Shown: one piece after another, positions 16,843 to 47,143 of the stretch
Layout of the letters: every line of letters begins with the position of its first letter
Position numbering within the stretch: the stretch's first letter is position 1
Assembly: GCA_016871195.1 (NCBI GenBank)
Contig: VFZN01000004.1
Coordinates: forward strand, 124,001-188,000
From: Acidobacteriota bacterium
Lineage (GTDB): Bacteria > Acidobacteriota > Vicinamibacteria > Vicinamibacterales > UBA2999
Direction of reading: 5' to 3'
Length of the DNA: 64,000 nucleotides
Position numbers and translations under genes: made by a program
The notes under the pieces: generated by a model
Database searches by the model: none
What the model saw: the letters and a program-made list of their open reading frames with translations, nothing else
Told to the model about the DNA's origin: nothing

Positions 16843-17871
16843 CTACTTGGTCTTGGCCTTGGCGTCCTTCAACGCCTTGTAGTGGGCCTCAATCGGCTTG
16901 AACGGCCCGAGGCGGTGCTGCTCGAGCGGAAACTCGTCGGCATACGGGCCATAGGCATTGTCGACGGGCTTGGTCGTCAGGTCCGGATAATCCTTCTCCT
17001 GCCCGATCATCGTGGGCCGCGACTGGGCATTGATGTAGGCCGCGACGTCAAACGCCTCGTCGTCAGACAGCGTGGCTTCGCCCAGGGGCATGCGCGCCTT
17101 GATGAAGCGTGCGGCAGTCAGCACACGGTGCATGCCGGCTCCGGTGTTGAAGCTGTCCGGGCCCCAGACCGGAGGAAACAGATAGCCTTTGCCTTTGTCT
17201 TCGGTGGCCAGCAGCCCCAGCCCGTCCTTGCCGTGACAGGTGGCGCACCGGCGCTGATACACCTCGCCACCGGCATCAACGTCGGCGCGACGGTCGGGCA
17301 TCTTGAAGGCGGGCGGTTCGGTGGCCTTGCGCGCCGAGGCGGGCATCGCGTCCCACTGCCGGCCGAGCCCGCGCAGGTAGGCTGCCATGGCCATCATCTC
17401 GACACTGTCCATCGGCAGCGGCTTGCCGTTCATGCTGCGCTGCATGCACTCGTTGATGCGGTCTTCGATATCGGTCATCTGGCCGGCACGACCGGAAAAG
17501 CGCGGATAATGCGCGTCGGTTTCGAACAGGTGCAGCGTGCCGGGGTCGGTGCCGGTGCCCAGATGGCACGAGCCGCAGTTGAGGCGGCTGTTGATGTAGC
17601 GCTTCTGCGGATCAGCCTGATCGGGCCCCAGCAGTTCAGCCGTCTGCGCGATGAGCCGACGGCCGAAATCTTCGGTGGCCTCGGCGGGCAGCGTCACCAT
17701 CGAGGCCGGTACCGCATCACCCCCACCCGACGCCGCCGCCGATGGGCGCCACAGCGACGCGCTGGTGCCAGACGACTGCAGCCCGACTACGATGAGGCCG
17801 ATGCTCAGGATGACGCCGGCCACGAGGGCAGGCAGCCATCCGGTTCCGCGGGGCGACGGGGCAGGGGTCAC
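16843..17871 (-). CDS. Diheme cytochrome c, thiosulfate dehydrogenase (TsdA)-like
   Basis: A 342-aa protein with an N-terminal membrane anchor (residues 11-31) and two heme c sites: Cys99-x-x-Cys102-His103 (NCGSCH) and Cys209-x-x-Cys212-His213 (CATCH). The N-terminal domain reads like TsdA/SoxA-type cytochromes (RRLIAQTAELLGP, INSRLNCGSCHLGTGTDP, YPRFSGRAG). TsdA enzymes oxidise thiosulfate to tetrathionate, or do the reverse, and use a cysteine as axial ligand of heme 1. Cys142 in INECMQRSMNG, 39 residues after His103, is a good candidate. The start is GTG overlapping the previous stop (GTGA), so it is coupled to the cbb3-type genes upstream. An electron donor or acceptor role for that oxidase is inferred. 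Confidence 0.78.
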   Translation of the reverse strand: MTPAPSPRGTGWLPALVAGVILSIGLIVVGLQSSGTSASLWRPSAAASGGGDAVPASMVTLPAEATEDFGRRLIAQTAELLGPDQADPQKRYINSRLNCGSCHLGTGTDPGTLHLFETDAHYPRFSGRAGQMTDIEDRINECMQRSMNGKPLPMDSVEMMAMAAYLRGLGRQWDAMPASARKATEPPAFKMPDRRADVDAGGEVYQRRCATCHGKDGLGLLATEDKGKGYLFPPVWGPDSFNTGAGMHRVLTAARFIKARMPLGEATLSDDEAFDVAAYINAQSRPTMIGQEKDYPDLTTKPVDNAYGPYADEFPLEQHRLGPFKPIEAHYKALKDAKAKTK

Positions 17872-18059
17872 GGCAGACTCGACTCCTTGGATGACGGAGA
17901 GGTCCGTCGATCCGCATCATATCCCCGCACCGCGTCGAGGAAGGTGAACTTGGGTTGCTCGATCGCGGCACGCCACCCTGGCAGTGCCAGCCACGCGCCC
18001 GCGAAGGCCAGCACCAGCGCGACCGAACCCCACACGATGAGGTCACTGAGGGTGTTCAC
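17868..18059 (-). CDS. Small single-span membrane protein of the cbb3-type operon (CcoQ-like position)
   Basis: A 63-aa protein starting at GTG 18059, one base after the stop of the CcoO-fusion gene. Its stop overlaps the start of the diheme cytochrome gene. Residues 4-26 (SDLIVWGSVALVLAFAGAWLA) form one membrane helix, and a polar tail follows (WRAAIEQPKFTFLDAVRGYD). Its place in the operon and its topology match small accessory subunits of cbb3 oxidases such as CcoQ, though sequence similarity is not evident to me. Tight coupling on both sides argues strongly that it is real. Confidence 0.7.
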   Translation of the reverse strand: MNTLSDLIVWGSVALVLAFAGAWLALPGWRAAIEQPKFTFLDAVRGYDADRRTSPSSKESSLP

Positions 18060-18060
18060 G

Positions 18061-19308
18061 TTACTTCCGCAGATGACCGGGCAGCGACGGCGTGTAGAGA
18101 CTGCGCACGTAATGTGCCGTGGCCAGGATCTCGGCACTCGTGAGACGCGAGGTCCACGGGGCCATGGGCGAGCCGGGTATGCCTTCGCGCAGCACCCGCA
18201 CGGCTTCCGACAGGCTCAGCTGCTGCTGTGTGAAGTTGGCCGGCACCATGGGCAGGGCATCGGCGGCGGTGCCATCCCCCCGGCCGTCGGTGCCGTGGCA
18301 CTGCGCGCAGTTGGCGGCGTAGACCTCACGGCCCTGCGCCAGCAGCGCCTCGGAGGGCGCCGGCTCGACGCGGGTGACCGACAGGGCCTGCACGGCCTGG
18401 GCCAGGGCTCCGAGGTCGTCAGGCGACAGGTCGCGCCACGCGGGCATGGCAGCACCGGTCACGCCGTTCCAGAGCGCCGACGCGAGGCGGGCGTTCGAGT
18501 AATCGTGCTGCGACAGATTCTTCGGGGCCGGGCGCAGGTGGCTCGCCGCCGGGCCATTGCCCTGGCCCTCGGGACCGTGGCAGGTAGCGCAGTGGCGGGC
18601 AAAGAGGGCCTGTCCCCGCGGCAGGGCCGCGGCATCAATCGGCAGGGCCGGAGCCTCGCCGTGCCTGATGGCGCGCGCCGGATGGTTGTTGAGCCGCCCC
18701 TCGAAGGCCATGGCCATCAGCGGGTCGTCGTCGCAGTCGCAGCCCTCTCTGGCGCGGGCCTCGCCTTCGGGACCAGCGACTTCGCGCGCACGACCGAGGC
18801 TGTCGAGATAGGCCACGAGGTCACGCGCCTCCTGGGTGGGCCGGTCGGGTGCGCCGTCGAAGAGCCAGGGATAGGCCGGCATCACCGACTCGCGGACGAC
18901 ATCGCGCGGAGCGTAGAGGTGCGCGTACTGCCAGTCGAGGCTGCGCGTGCCACCGGCCCGGCTGAGGTCAGGCCCGATGCGACGGGTGCCGAGCATGTGC
19001 GGCGTATCAAACTGGGTTTCCCACGCCAGGGTCGGGGCTCCGAACCGTCGGGTATCGGCTGCGGTGAAGCGCACCTGCTGCGAGTGGCAGTATGAACAGC
19101 CCTCGCGGGCGTAGACAAGGCGACCGCGCGATTCGCTGACCGACGGGCGCAGCGGCACCTCAGGCGCCATGCGCGTCGTCTGGTCGCGGAGCATCTGCGT
19201 CGGCCACACCCCGAGCAGCCCCACTGACGTGACGAAAAACAGCACGCCGGCCACACAGGCCACCACATAGGCCATGCGCAGCGCGCGTGTCGACGTCGGG
19301 GCGCTCAT
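18061..19308 (-). CDS. Fused cbb3-type oxidase subunit II (CcoO) and dicytochrome c protein
   Basis: A 415-aa protein. Residues 10-35 form a membrane anchor. Residues 55-170 are a CcoO/FixO domain (EGCSYCHSQQVR with heme Cys71/Cys74/His75, then MLGTRRIGPDLSRAGG and a conserved YPWLFDG). Two further cytochrome c domains follow, with Cys240/Cys243/His244 (HCATCH) and Cys334/Cys337/His338 (NCAQCH), taking the place of a diheme CcoP. It would bring electrons to the heme-copper subunit encoded just upstream, with which it overlaps by ATGA. A linker with the odd run REGCDCDDDP joins the domains. Separate ccoO and ccoP genes are the usual arrangement, so the fusion is notable. Confidence 0.9.
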   Translation of the reverse strand: MSAPTSTRALRMAYVVACVAGVLFFVTSVGLLGVWPTQMLRDQTTRMAPEVPLRPSVSESRGRLVYAREGCSYCHSQQVRFTAADTRRFGAPTLAWETQFDTPHMLGTRRIGPDLSRAGGTRSLDWQYAHLYAPRDVVRESVMPAYPWLFDGAPDRPTQEARDLVAYLDSLGRAREVAGPEGEARAREGCDCDDDPLMAMAFEGRLNNHPARAIRHGEAPALPIDAAALPRGQALFARHCATCHGPEGQGNGPAASHLRPAPKNLSQHDYSNARLASALWNGVTGAAMPAWRDLSPDDLGALAQAVQALSVTRVEPAPSEALLAQGREVYAANCAQCHGTDGRGDGTAADALPMVPANFTQQQLSLSEAVRVLREGIPGSPMAPWTSRLTSAEILATAHYVRSLYTPSLPGHLRK

Positions 19309-20726
19309 GTGTGGTCTCCCGCAAGACTCGGCGCCAGATGCGTGCGCGACTGTGCCACCGGGTCACCGCCCTCGGGGCGGACCGACAGCCCGCCTCCGCG
19401 GGGGCCTGTCGTCAGGCCAGCCAGCAGCAGAATGAAGCCACCGCTCAGCAGACCGCCGATGTGCGTGCGTGCGGCCCAGTACTTCCGCGAGGCTGCCACA
19501 GAATCCATCCACGGCGCGCCGTCGAGCCAGAGCTGTCCCTGCACGAGGCCCGCGAGGGTGAGGTCGGCGACCATCAGCACCAGGCCGATGGTCATGAGCC
19601 AGTAGGCCCACGACAGGGCCCCGGCGTGGTACCGCGCCTCGGGCATCCGCTGCCACGCGTGAATCAGGCCGCCGGCGGCCGCAAAGCTGGCGAAGCCGAG
19701 CATGGCCATGTGGGAATGCGCGATGACCCAGTCGGTGAAGTGCACGCGCTGGTTGAGCGACATCTGTGCCTGCACCGAACCCTGCAGGCTCACGATCAGA
19801 TAGAACACGATGCCGGTGCTGACAAAGCGCAGGGCCGGGTCGCGCGGCAGCCAGCCGGCTCCGCGCAGCGACAGTAGCAGATTCGTGACGACGAGCACGA
19901 CGCTGACCCCGAGCAGGGCCGACGTGATGATTGCGGTCAGCTGCGCCGACATCGGAATCACCGAGAACACGTAGTGATGCGTGCCGTTCAGCGGATAGAG
20001 GAAGAACAGCAGCCAGAAGCCCAGCATCGACAGGAAGTGGCTGAAGATGGGGCGGCCCGTCGACGCGGGAATGACGAAGTACATCGTTGACAGCGCCAGC
20101 GGCGTGACAAAGAGGCCAACGGCGTCGTGAATCCACAGCCCGCTGAAGGCGGCCCCGGCGGCGCCGGCCACGACCTCGGGCACGACATTGCCCATCGGAT
20201 AGCTCAGCAGCGTGAATACCAGGCCGCCGATGATGTACCAGCTCGAGATGTACATCGACTCGACGCCGCGGCGGAAAAACCCGGGAAGAAACTGGACGCC
20301 CATGCCGACCAGCACGAGGGCGACCATGACGTCGACCATCAGGGGAAACTCGGCCCACTCGAGGGGCTGGCTGACGCCGGCGAGCACGAGCACCCAGCCG
20401 GGCACCATGACGCCGAAGTTCCAGAGTGCGCACAGCCAGATGCCGAGGCGTTCGCTCGTCACCGGACGCCCGGTGAGAATCGGCACCGCATGGTAGAGAA
20501 ACGCGAAAAAGGCGTTGGCGAGCCAGCCCAGCATGATGCCCTGTGTGTGGGCATAGCGGATGCGGCCCCAGCCGAGCGAGGGGGTGCCGGCGCCGAAGTC
20601 GGGCGACTGCAGCTGGAACGCCGCCACCAGTCCGAAGCTCACCGAGATGAGCAGCGTGACCAGGGCGGCGATTCCATGAGCGCGGACGAGGCCGCGGGCA
20701 ACTGTCGGAGCAGGGGCCGTCGTCAC
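19305..20726 (-). CDS. cbb3-type cytochrome c oxidase subunit I (CcoN-like)
   Basis: A 473-aa heme-copper oxidase core with about 12 membrane helices. Ligand candidates are the low-spin heme His in RYAHTQGIMLGW, the CuB histidines in GLWIHDAVGLFVTPL and NGTHHYVF, and the heme pair in VIAHSHMAMLGF. The overall pattern and the CcoO domain encoded next make this the C-family (cbb3) rather than an A-type oxidase. It would reduce oxygen at the expense of c-type cytochromes, with high oxygen affinity as is usual for the family. A NorB-like role is less likely because the neighbour is CcoO. It lies 13 bases downstream of the duplicated-domain gene, in one unit. Confidence 0.88.
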   Translation of the reverse strand: MTTAPAPTVARGLVRAHGIAALVTLLISVSFGLVAAFQLQSPDFGAGTPSLGWGRIRYAHTQGIMLGWLANAFFAFLYHAVPILTGRPVTSERLGIWLCALWNFGVMVPGWVLVLAGVSQPLEWAEFPLMVDVMVALVLVGMGVQFLPGFFRRGVESMYISSWYIIGGLVFTLLSYPMGNVVPEVVAGAAGAAFSGLWIHDAVGLFVTPLALSTMYFVIPASTGRPIFSHFLSMLGFWLLFFLYPLNGTHHYVFSVIPMSAQLTAIITSALLGVSVVLVVTNLLLSLRGAGWLPRDPALRFVSTGIVFYLIVSLQGSVQAQMSLNQRVHFTDWVIAHSHMAMLGFASFAAAGGLIHAWQRMPEARYHAGALSWAYWLMTIGLVLMVADLTLAGLVQGQLWLDGAPWMDSVAASRKYWAARTHIGGLLSGGFILLLAGLTTGPRGGGLSVRPEGGDPVAQSRTHLAPSLAGDHT

Positions 20727-20739
20727 AGAGGGGGCAGTG

Positions 20740-21828
20740 TTACTTGTTGATCGGAATCATGATGTGCGCGCCGGGCGTGCCGGGCAGCATCAGCCAGGGC
20801 GTGCCGCGCATCTCCAACGCTTCCTCGCGCTGGCTGGCGGTCGACACCCCGATCGTCTCGGGCGTGGCCCCGGGCACCGACAGCACCCACAGCAGCTGGA
20901 TGCGGTCGCGCTTGCCGTAGAGGCGATACGACATCGTGCCGAACGGTGTTGGCTTGATGGTGCCGTTCTTGGTGGCCTCGGCGACGGCGGCGGTGATCTC
21001 GGCTTCGGTCTTCTTCTGCGCCGTCAGCTTTGCCGTCAGATCACGACGGGCCGCGGAGACCTTGTTGTAGCACCAGGTGAAGCCGTCGGCCAGGCGGGGC
21101 ATGCACTCGATGGCGTTGGTCCCGGGACGCAGCACGCGGCGATCGCCGTTGGCGTCGTACTCGTAGACGGTGGCGCCGGCTTTCAGATCGTCGGGCAGCG
21201 GCAGCGTGGCCTGCGTGATCTTGTCGGTCGCCTCGTCCGTGATGGTCGAGTCTTTCGGCGCCGGGTTGATCGGAATCATGATGTGCGAGCCGGGCGTGCC
21301 GGGCAGCATCATCCACGGGAGGCCCTTCCCCTCGAGAGCATTGGTGCGCTGGCTTACCGTCGAGACGCCGACGGATTCCGGGGTCGCGTTGGGCAGCGAC
21401 ATCACCCACAGGTCCTGAATGCGGTCACGCTTGTCGTACTGGCGATACGACATCATGCCCTGCGGCGACGGCGGAATCGTGCCGGCCTTCACTGCCGCCG
21501 CCATGGCGGCCGAGATTTCGGCCTCGGTCTTCTTCTGGGCCGTCAGCCTGGCCTCGAGGTCGCGGCGGGGAGCCTGCGAGTTGTGATAGCAGCGGGCGAA
21601 GCCGTCGACGCTGCTCCGCACGTGACATTCCGCCCAGTTGGTGCCCTTGCGCAGCACCTGGCGGTTGCCCTCGGCGTCGTAGGCCACGACGGTCGCGTTA
21701 TCACGCATGTCCGGCGGAAGAATCTTCACCGCATCCGCAATGCGCGGATCGGCGGCACCGGTCTGGGCCGCCACGGACAGCGGCACCAGCACGAGGGCGG
21801 TGGACAGCAGGCGAATCATTCGAGCCAT
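20740..21828 (-). CDS. Secreted protein with two tandem copies of an unknown domain
   Basis: A 362-aa protein with a signal peptide (MARMIRLLSTALVLVPLSVAAQ). Two clearly homologous halves of about 165 residues follow. Each runs from an AT-V-x-Y-D-A-x-G-x-R-x-V-L-R-x-GTN block, through RRDL-x-A-x-LTAQKKTEAEI and an SYR-x-Y-x-KRDRIQ-LWV block, to LPGTPG-H-IMIPIN at the end. Each copy has a Cys pair (AECH...ARCY; IECM...TWCY). ATG 21828 has GAAAGG 9 bases upstream; the longer open frame back to 22167 only reads over the DsrE-like gene. I do not recognise the domain. Its place between a DsrE-like protein and the oxidase suggests a periplasmic accessory role. Confidence 0.8.
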   Translation of the reverse strand: MARMIRLLSTALVLVPLSVAAQTGAADPRIADAVKILPPDMRDNATVVAYDAEGNRQVLRKGTNWAECHVRSSVDGFARCYHNSQAPRRDLEARLTAQKKTEAEISAAMAAAVKAGTIPPSPQGMMSYRQYDKRDRIQDLWVMSLPNATPESVGVSTVSQRTNALEGKGLPWMMLPGTPGSHIMIPINPAPKDSTITDEATDKITQATLPLPDDLKAGATVYEYDANGDRRVLRPGTNAIECMPRLADGFTWCYNKVSAARRDLTAKLTAQKKTEAEITAAVAEATKNGTIKPTPFGTMSYRLYGKRDRIQLLWVLSVPGATPETIGVSTASQREEALEMRGTPWLMLPGTPGAHIMIPINK

Positions 21829-21863
21829 GGAACAGTACCTTTCACTCTCTGGAAGTCGTGCGT

Positions 21864-22502
21864 TTACCCGACAAACAGGAGGCGGAACCCGCGCTCCTGC
21901 GCGTGCAGCACCCCGACCACGCCAGCGGCCACGAGCCGCGAACTGGGCAGCAGGTTCGGGACCATTTCGTTCTTGAGCAGCGCATCCGCGTCGCCACCCT
22001 GGCCCGCGAGGCGCCCGGCGATCCCGCGGCTGGCGGTGCCGCACACAATGAACTGCACGCCGCGCTTGGCGAGGCCCGACAGCTGCATGCGCTCGCCCGA
22101 GTTGTAGGGATTCCCGGTCGGGGTCGGCTCGACCTTCGGGGCCAGCATCTTGCCGTACTTGGCCCACACAGCGTCGCCGTAGCCGTAGGCGGTTGCCGAG
22201 TGGCGCAGGCAGATCATGATGGCCATGTCGGCGTCTTCGATGCCGTAGCCGTTCTTGCTGCCGGTGTAGAGGTTGCCCGCAAAGCGGATGGCGTCGGGCA
22301 GACCCTCGGGCGAGGTGACGTCGAGGATGACGCGGTGCTTGCCCGGCATGGTGCTCATCCAGTCATCCGTCGGGTGCAGCATCGGCTGGAACGGTGCCGC
22401 GCCCCCCTGGGCGGCCGTCGCGGTGCCGCCAAAGGCAGCGGCCGTGGCCACTGCGCCCAGTCCGGTCATGACGTTACGACGCCCGGTGATTCGCTTCGAC
22501 AT
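21864..22502 (-). CDS. Tat-exported DsrE-like protein
   Basis: A 212-aa protein. It begins with a twin-arginine-type signal (TGRRNVMTGLGAVATAAAFGG), so it should be exported folded. The remainder resembles the DsrE/DsrF fold: HRVILDVTSPEGLPDAIRFAGNLY, DADMAIMICLRHSATAYGYGD, and LSGLAKRGVQFIVCGTASRGIA with a single well-placed cysteine in the C-x-T element. DsrE-like proteins bind or transfer sulfur through such a cysteine. ATG 22502 is preferred over the longer frame because GAGGG lies upstream and the signal peptide starts there. It is the first gene of the six-gene leftward unit. Confidence 0.72.
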   Translation of the reverse strand: MSKRITGRRNVMTGLGAVATAAAFGGTATAAQGGAAPFQPMLHPTDDWMSTMPGKHRVILDVTSPEGLPDAIRFAGNLYTGSKNGYGIEDADMAIMICLRHSATAYGYGDAVWAKYGKMLAPKVEPTPTGNPYNSGERMQLSGLAKRGVQFIVCGTASRGIAGRLAGQGGDADALLKNEMVPNLLPSSRLVAAGVVGVLHAQERGFRLLFVG

Positions 22503-22533
22503 AGTCTGCTGTCCCTCTGCAAGTGAAATCGGA

Positions 22534-22561
22534 GGCACCCCGGGGTGCCGCACCGATTATA
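22534..22561 (-). promoter_or_regulatory. Putative -10 box and palindromic operator of the dsrE/cbb3 operon
   Basis: On the minus strand a perfect TATAAT occupies 22561-22556. Just downstream lies a perfect 16-bp palindrome, GGCACCCCGGGGTGCC (22534-22549), placed over the expected transcription start. No good -35 box is visible, so an activator may be needed. A palindrome at this position is typical of a repressor site or a 5' hairpin. Confidence 0.5.
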
Positions 22562-45610: not shown

Positions 45611-47143
45611 TCACGGCCAGGTGCGTCGGAGTTCCTCGATGAATGCCCGACGGATGTCGCGGAACTCCTCGACACCCGTCACGCCGTCAGCCGTGCGAGT
45701 CAGGAAGGCCATGTTGGCCTCGCGTCCGGTCAGCAGGAATTCGGGCAGGGACACGGCGTATGACATCTCAGGGGCGAGCGGGGTGCCGTTCACCTGCCAG
45801 CCCGTCGATGTCGACGTCACGGCAGCGCTGTGGTGCAGATATCCGCCTTCTCCGGCATTCCGTCGCCCGGCCTCAAGCACCCGCTGCAGCAGGGCTCCGG
45901 ACATCTGCACGCGTACGATCTTCCCCCCGAAGGGCATGACCCGGATAACGTCGTACTCGGTGAGCGGGCCCGGTGGGATCACATCATCGATGCGGACTGA
46001 CCCGCCATTGAGCAGCCCGATGGCGGCCCCCGTTTCGCGCACCATGCCGGCCACGATGAGATCCGTAAGCTGTCCCGTGCGATTGCGCACGACCGACTCG
46101 CGTCCGTCGAGCGATATCGGTAGCGTCACCACCGCCGCTTCCGGAGTGAAGCCGTCGCGCCGGAACGCGTTGTAGGCCGTGGCGGTCCACTGTTCCACGC
46201 GCCGCGCGACGGTGCGGTCGGGCTGCACCCGTTCGTCGAGCGGCAGCAGCCGCGACTCGACCACGGGGCGCGTCCCCTCAGCGCCGAACGTCATCGACAC
46301 CACGGCCAGTGAGCGGGCGTTGGCGTCGGCTTTCACGATGGGCGTCAGCCGTGCGCCTCGCCGGAGCAGCCAGTTTTCGTGTTCGTGGCCGCCGACAATG
46401 AGATCGATCTCGGGCAGGGCCTCGACCAGCGCGGCGTCTTCCTCGAGCGTGAGATGGGAGATGACGACGACCGCGTCGAGGGGGCGGGGCAGGGCGGTTA
46501 CGGCCTGACGGACCGATTCGACCGCGGGACGATACCGCACCCACGGGCGCGGGTTGGCGTCGGTGACCACGCCGGTGAGGCCAATGCGCAGGGCGCGTCC
46601 ATGCACCGTCACGGGCACCATCACGCCGGGGGTGGTTTTTGGAAATGGCTGCCCCTGCGCGTCGGTGACGTTGCTGACGATGACCTGAAAGCGCGCCTCC
46701 TCGAGTCGGGCGCGGAAGGCCGCTTCGGCCACATCGAACTCGTGATTGCCGAGCGTAGCGAACTGCAGACCCGTGGCGTTGAGCACATCGACCATCTGTC
46801 GTCCGGCCAGAGGCGTGCCGTCGACCCTGGCGGTGCCCAGAGCCGAGGGTGAGAGGAAGTCGCCGCCGAGGGTGGTGATGACCGGCGTCGCTGACTGGCG
46901 CAGTGCAGCGAACGCCGTGGCGACGCGGGCCAGACCGCCCGAGCGGCCGCTATCGAGTGCGCCGATTTCATACACATCGTTGATGTGGGCCAGCGTGACG
47001 GTGGTTGTCGCGGCGACGCTGGCCACGGCCTGCCCCGGGGACGGCGTGCGTGTGGCGGCACCACTCGAGACACAGGCCTGCAGCACGCCCGCGAGCGACA
47101 GGGAAAGCAGGGAACGGAGGAGGGAGCGTCGCATCGTGCGCAT
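45611..47143 (-). CDS. 5'-nucleotidase/UDP-sugar hydrolase family lipoprotein (UshA-like)
   Basis: A 510-aa protein. The lipobox LQAC (Cys24) predicts lipid anchoring. The metallophosphoesterase domain shows LAHINDVYEI (metal Asp/His), LGGDFLSPSALG, TLGNHEFDV, VISHLTLEEDAALVEALPEIDLIVGGHEHENW. The C-terminal 5'-nucleotidase domain has AAIGLLNGGSVRIDDVIPPG and ITEYDVIRVMPFGGKIVRVQMSG-type elements. It would dephosphorylate extracellular nucleotides or hydrolyse UDP-sugars. GGAGA precedes ATG 47143. Confidence 0.92.
   Translation of the reverse strand: MRTMRRSLLRSLLSLSLAGVLQACVSSGAATRTPSPGQAVASVAATTTVTLAHINDVYEIGALDSGRSGGLARVATAFAALRQSATPVITTLGGDFLSPSALGTARVDGTPLAGRQMVDVLNATGLQFATLGNHEFDVAEAAFRARLEEARFQVIVSNVTDAQGQPFPKTTPGVMVPVTVHGRALRIGLTGVVTDANPRPWVRYRPAVESVRQAVTALPRPLDAVVVISHLTLEEDAALVEALPEIDLIVGGHEHENWLLRRGARLTPIVKADANARSLAVVSMTFGAEGTRPVVESRLLPLDERVQPDRTVARRVEQWTATAYNAFRRDGFTPEAAVVTLPISLDGRESVVRNRTGQLTDLIVAGMVRETGAAIGLLNGGSVRIDDVIPPGPLTEYDVIRVMPFGGKIVRVQMSGALLQRVLEAGRRNAGEGGYLHHSAAVTSTSTGWQVNGTPLAPEMSYAVSLPEFLLTGREANMAFLTRTADGVTGVEEFRDIRRAFIEELRRTWP

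Follow-up and report, generated by a model that had tools for sequence, protein, structure and literature searches.

A six-gene operon in a 64,000-nucleotide stretch of DNA from an Acidobacteriota bacterium (Vicinamibacterales, UBA2999; assembly GCA_016871195.1, contig VFZN01000004.1, positions 124,001 to 188,000), hereafter the window, probably encodes a self-contained thiosulfate:O2 oxidoreductase chain, judging from the protein families and catalytic residues, and this chain would operate at the periplasmic face of the inner membrane. The operon itself is real: six open reading frames (ORFs), named A to F, lie on the minus strand, and their coordinates agree with an earlier note on this DNA that had described six leftward genes separated by gaps of 1 to 35 nt or by 4-nt overlaps. 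The spacing (35 nt between A and B, 13 nt between B and C, 1 nt between D and E, 4-nt overlaps at C/D and E/F) suggests a single transcript. The likely start of gene A is the ATG at 22502 (MSKRITGRRNVM, with a twin arginine), preferred over an upstream GTG at 22553. In window coordinates, the genes are as follows.

22502-21864, minus strand: gene A, predicted Tat-exported (twin-arginine translocation) DsrE-fold protein of 212 aa with one invariant Cys, apparently a distant homologue of the thiosulfate dehydrogenase TSD
21828-20740, minus strand: gene B, secreted protein in which a ~170-aa domain occurs twice
20726-19305, minus strand: gene C, CcoN-like catalytic subunit of a putative divergent C-family heme-copper oxidase, with Glu323 replaced by Gln
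19308-18061, minus strand: gene D, CcoO (one heme c, N-terminal transmembrane (TM) segment) with a fused diheme cytochrome c domain, three CXXCH motifs in total
18059-17868, minus strand: gene E, 63-aa protein with a single TM segment, encoded between D and F
17871-16843, minus strand: gene F, diheme TsdA, read as membrane-anchored, with a conserved C-terminal extension

By its sequence and the residues tested, F is a true TsdA thiosulfate dehydrogenase of predicted activity. A phmmer search of solved structures pairs it with the Allochromatium TsdA structure 4wq7 (E 1.4e-39), and in Pfam it matches PF21342 (SoxA/TsdA) together with cytochrome c domains; the family search thus bears out the earlier note, which had called the diheme protein TsdA-like. 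Identification as SoxA was rejected, SoxA chains being matched at 1e-4 or weaker against 1e-39 for TsdA structures and the SoxA model yielding 44.7 bits for a cut-off of 110. When 48 TsdAs of the module are aligned to that of A. vinosum, whose numbering serves as reference, both CXXCH heme sites, the heme 1 ligand Cys96, Arg82, Arg92, Lys206 and the heme-2 Met209 are present in all 48 sequences, while the position of A. vinosum Lys208 is occupied by Arg in 43 and by Lys in five. Replacement of the heme-1 Cys nearly abolishes TsdA activity, and Met209 is strictly conserved among TsdAs while the residue preceding it is variable (PMC5146829). At its N-terminus F has a hydrophobic segment that lacks a lipobox and is taken as a membrane anchor; its C-terminal extension carries an EQHxxGP motif in 46 of the 48 sequences. 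The idea that this extension is exclusive to oxidase-linked TsdAs was dropped: three TsdAs from oxidase-less loci lack it, but the TsdA of locus L134, where no match to C lies within the fetched stretch, has it.

The products of C and D would together make up a cbb3-like oxidase of the C family, divergent yet complete in its metal ligands and cross-link Tyr, in line with the CcoN-like protein and CcoO-dicytochrome fusion noted earlier. C matches COX1 (E 8.9e-60), the ccoN model (E 3.4e-51) and CcoN chains of solved structures (E 4.8e-40); its 174.6 bits on the ccoN equivalog model lie far below the cut-off of 583, which places it in a clade apparently separate from canonical ccoN. In an alignment across 60 relatives, H207, H257, H258, H345, H347 and the cross-link Tyr251 are kept in all 60, and H60 in 59 of 59 (one row being gapped at that position). 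Since the heme and CuB His ligands and Tyr251 are maintained, the enzyme should reduce O2. Glu122 and Glu125 are also kept across the same relatives; Glu323, which the canonical cbb3 enzymes of L012, L013 and P. stutzeri retain (the L011 row was left out of this comparison), is Gln in 60/60. D matches FixO (E 5.9e-39) and two cytochrome c domains in Pfam, and among PDB sequences it matches CcoO chains (1.8e-30) and, through its second half, CcoP chains (2.1e-10). No further ccoP is found inside the operon; as D fuses CcoO to a diheme domain, a separate CcoP or TsdB would be unneeded. In Pseudomonadota, C and D are themselves fused into one polypeptide of ~880 aa, and the three heme sites are retained in fused or separate forms, except in two ORFs that are probably cut short. 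A related CcoN with Gln323, ~35% identical to C, is encoded with a CcoO in another unusual oxidase operon (L127 4515-8287, L128 6115-9883 and L129 4420-8289), adjoining genes read as encoding a seven-heme cytochrome, a Rieske protein and a cytochrome b-like protein.

The pairing of this oxidase with TsdA recurs well beyond the window. A scan of the collection by similarity to the window's C returned 80 loci, a sample biased to close relatives, and context was counted in the 48 of them with at least 3.5 kb on either side of C. F is present in 42/48 of these loci, F together with A in 38 and F together with B in 22; the remaining six carry the sulfite dehydrogenase SorA, so that none has neither TsdA nor SorA. 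Of 193 genomes from the window's class, 19 have C (E<1e-190) and 19 an F orthologue (E<1e-100), with 18 having both, and in the two genomes that break the pairing the contigs concerned are only 4.3 and 3.4 kb long. The genomes compared are related and hence not independent trials; the co-occurrence of C and F is not due to chance. The operon core is conserved across Acidobacteriota and Pseudomonadota. In Pseudomonadota, where A and B sometimes lie downstream or are transcribed divergently, conservation concerns the gene set and not the strict order. None of the refuting outcomes named in the earlier note (the diheme protein outside TsdA, the first protein outside DsrE, no conservation of the arrangement) was observed. 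The apparent spread to Actinomycetota was discounted: the ‘Acidimicrobiia’ locus L054 shares its coordinates with G146, a genome of the window's order, and groups with Vicinamibacterales in the tree, and its label is probably wrong. cysDNC, whose cysD is the divergent gene ~90 nt from the operon, and KUP were searched for in the related loci and found in none; both were therefore rejected as parts of the system, and the place given to cysDNC in the sulfur theme falls away.

The strongest indirect evidence for function comes from the six loci without TsdA, SorA being, like TsdA, a sulfur-oxyanion dehydrogenase. All six belong to Planctomycetota and the Melainabacteria group, and in them the fused oxidase follows a SorA-type sulfite dehydrogenase (E 3e-154, slightly short of the curated cut-off) and a SorB-type cytochrome. 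The SorA-type version also occurs in a complete genome, that of Planctomycetes bacterium Pan216 (L092). A close F is found in none of eight SorA-type genomes searched, and a distant TsdA lies elsewhere in two of the eight. In the tree of C, the SorA-type loci form a single clade with full SH-aLRT support, which calls for one change of partner; the root of this tree, and with it the direction of that change, is uncertain. Because the same oxidase clade pairs with SorA/SorB, it would accept electrons from more than one sulfur-oxyanion dehydrogenase. The clade thus appears to be wired to such dehydrogenases, with the front end exchanged, and this unforeseen exchange adds to the support for the dedicated sulfur-to-oxygen chain that the earlier note had suggested.

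We infer the substrate, the electron path and its direction, and the roles of A, B and E as follows. F, anchored by its N-terminal TM helix, would couple two thiosulfates into tetrathionate on its Cys-ligated heme; from heme 2, electrons would reach the diheme domain of D, which would stand in for TsdB or CcoP, and move on through the CcoO heme to the heme b/b3-CuB centre of C, where O2 would be reduced. A would stand on the sulfur side, binding thiosulfate or thiosulfonate through its Cys; it may be a second protein that binds or oxidises thiosulfate, or a carrier onto which the thiosulfonate group of the product is transferred. B may be an accessory on the TsdA side and E a small, CcoQ-like structural subunit. 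The presence of an oxidase in the operon argues for the oxidative direction, as a tetrathionate reductase accepts electrons and would need no oxidase. Several points weigh against this chain. TsdA enzymes work both ways, that of Campylobacter being a tetrathionate reductase (PMC5146829). The Glu323-to-Gln exchange could change proton delivery, and the relatives are nearly all metagenome-assembled genomes bearing submitter-given names (the host genome, going by its nearest relatives, is likewise an acidobacterial metagenome-assembled genome). Finally, the usual cbb3 assembly factors CcoG and FixS were not found in the host genome, which is 98% complete (FixS being tiny).

Gene A belongs to no Pfam or NCBIfam family above cut-off; the Pfam DsrE model (PF02635) matches neither A nor three of its relatives, and a profile of A finds no significant match among PDB sequences, so it is placed by fold comparison alone. 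Its AlphaFold (AF2) model (pLDDT, the model's per-residue confidence score, of 96) predicts a DsrE fold, with Z scores (VIA) of 14.6 for MTH1491, 11.8 for YchN and 10.9 for DsrEFH; DsrE-like structures span Z 14.6-9, the best unrelated structure reaching 5.6. The invariant Cys is C118 of the modelled mature part. The nearest relatives by profile lie in NF052225, which we take to be the model of the Acidithiobacillus thiosulfate dehydrogenase TSD (AFE_0042). A itself scores 17.7 bits on this model (curated cut-off 300) and a paralogue up to 40 bits, and A-family proteins match it weakly yet repeatedly, with a best E of 2.6e-10. Aligned with hhalign to two bona fide NF052225 proteins, A gives an E of 8.4e-9 and a probability of 95.7 over 166 columns, Cys on Cys, the identity to TSD being ~17%. 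Profile comparison thus makes A a probable distant homologue of the cofactor-free Acidithiobacillus TSD. Of the earlier description of the first protein as DsrE-like, the fold stands (Z 14.6), while the Pfam DsrE model does not recognise it and its closest relative is the Acidithiobacillus TSD, not the classic DsrE carriers. A genes adjoin TsdA in several acidobacterial genomes without a match to the C-type oxidase, once accompanied by B (L137), which argues that A and B belong with TsdA and not with the oxidase. A chemical precedent for A as a carrier would be Metallosphaera DsrE3A, on which tetrathionate yields a Cys-S-thiosulfonate (PMC4175335).

Rhodaneses and extra exported DsrE proteins are frequent neighbours of the module: rhodaneses adjoin it in L042 and L068, and more exported Pfam-DsrE proteins lie beside it in several loci (L030 7097-7633, L041 4-348). 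In several Acidobacteriota, a second, diverged Tat-exported paralogue of A sits between A and B (L034 3009-3608, L039 6232-6846, L037 6229-6843); that of L039 is nearer than A to the Acidithiobacillus TSD model (E 2.6e-10).

B has no Pfam or NCBIfam match above cut-off, and a fold search with its AF2 model (pLDDT 92) finds no fold match in the PDB; the duplicated domain, with two invariant Cys in each ~170-aa copy, is possibly a new fold. Its orthologues in Gammaproteobacteria are single-domain. E belongs to no Pfam family; it resembles CcoQ in place and size, has one hydrophobic stretch as read from the sequence, and has homologues in the same position in most TsdA-type loci.

It is possible, if unlikely, that the dehydrogenase acts on another sulfur compound, such as a sulfide-derived polysulfide, an organic thiosulfate or a thiol, brought Cys-bound by the DsrE-fold protein. 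A, the neighbouring exported DsrE proteins and the rhodaneses are of sulfur-carrier types, and the Arg in place of A. vinosum Lys208 in 43/48 F relatives would fit such a substrate; however, the tested TsdA active-site residues are invariant in F, the residue preceding Met209 varies in known TsdAs too (PMC5146829), and A is itself akin to a thiosulfate dehydrogenase. Less probable still is an arrangement in which A is the primary thiosulfate oxidase and F mainly its electron acceptor, the acceptor of TSD then being a TsdA-like cytochrome. For the A. ferrooxidans TSD (AFE_0042), to which the A family is homologous, neither ubiquinone nor horse cytochrome c reportedly serves as acceptor (PMC6335251), and A is found next to TsdA even in genomes without the oxidase; yet the identity of A to TSD is low, its score stays far below the curated TSD cut-off, and F holds the full set of tested TsdA active-site residues. 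That F is a tetrathionate reductase merely co-transcribed with the oxidase genes of a separate respiratory branch is very improbable, for while its Met without Lys208 resembles the TsdA with which Campylobacter reduces tetrathionate in vivo (PMC5146829), a fixed oxidase partner brings no gain to an electron-consuming reductase, and the same oxidase elsewhere pairs with the electron-producing sulfite dehydrogenase SorA.

The proposed thiosulfate:O2 chain shares features with several known systems. With the TsdA/TsdB systems of Allochromatium, Thiomonas, Pseudomonas stutzeri and Halomonas it has in common the Cys/His heme 1, the Met heme 2 and a diheme cytochrome acceptor, and for such thiosulfate oxidisers an electron route from TsdB to a cbb3 oxidase has been proposed (PMC9237845); here, by contrast, CcoO and the diheme acceptor are one protein, the oxidase genes belong to the same operon, F has a C-terminal extension and apparently a membrane anchor, and A and B come in addition. 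The cbb3 CcoNOP enzymes have the same heme and CuB ligands, cross-link Tyr, CcoO and diheme cytochrome unit, whereas C is ~30% identical to canonical CcoN and carries Gln323, a separate CcoP with a TM helix is absent, and CcoN, CcoO and the diheme unit often form one polypeptide, with the usual assembly factors missing from the host genome as noted above. In the loci of Planctomycetota and the Melainabacteria group, the genes directly upstream of this fused oxidase are those for SorA and SorB; in the window operon, TsdA takes their place. The A. ferrooxidans TSD resembles A in its profile homology over most of A, its twin-arginine export signal and its shared Cys, but its gene sits with doxDA and rhd (PMC6335251), not with TsdA or an oxidase. 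DsrE, DsrEFH, TusBCD and DsrE3A carriers have the fold of A (Z 10-15) and, like it, a Cys where a core strand ends; unlike them, A is exported and beyond the Pfam DsrE model, DsrE3A being described as cytoplasmic. Titles and abstracts of the open-licence literature, a partial coverage with most subscription papers outside it, describe no such tsdA-oxidase operon or SorA variant. The parts are already known, and it is their assembly that appears to be new, the Gln323 clade and the link between TSD and DsrE being less expected.

Elsewhere in the window (45611-47143), a weak match to the SoxB superfamily (58 bits for a cut-off of 550) is probably a 5'-nucleotidase-like protein, and matches to SoxB in the host genome are weak only and well below cut-off.

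There is about an even chance that a wider proposition holds, namely that oxidases of the Gln323-marked C-family clade serve periplasmic sulfur-oxyanion dehydrogenases, be it TsdA or SorAB, as an exchangeable back end, so that electrons from sulfur reach O2 through a hard-wired oxidoreductase without passing quinones or soluble cytochrome c, and that TsdA has a functional partner in a DsrE-fold family to which the Acidithiobacillus TSD also belongs. If the reading of the operon is true, it would provide a recognisable thiosulfate-respiring gene set for widespread uncultured soil and marine-sediment bacteria (Acidobacteriota, Woeseiaceae and Pseudohongiella relatives), which surveys relying on the canonical ccoN model or on sox genes would overlook. 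It would also link TsdA, the orphan Acidithiobacillus TSD, which lacks a known electron acceptor, and DsrE-type thiosulfonate carriers, until now studied apart. The swap of TsdA and SorA on one oxidase constitutes a natural experiment in the wiring of respiratory modules, and Gln323 makes it possible to test directly a position that canonical cbb3 enzymes conserve.

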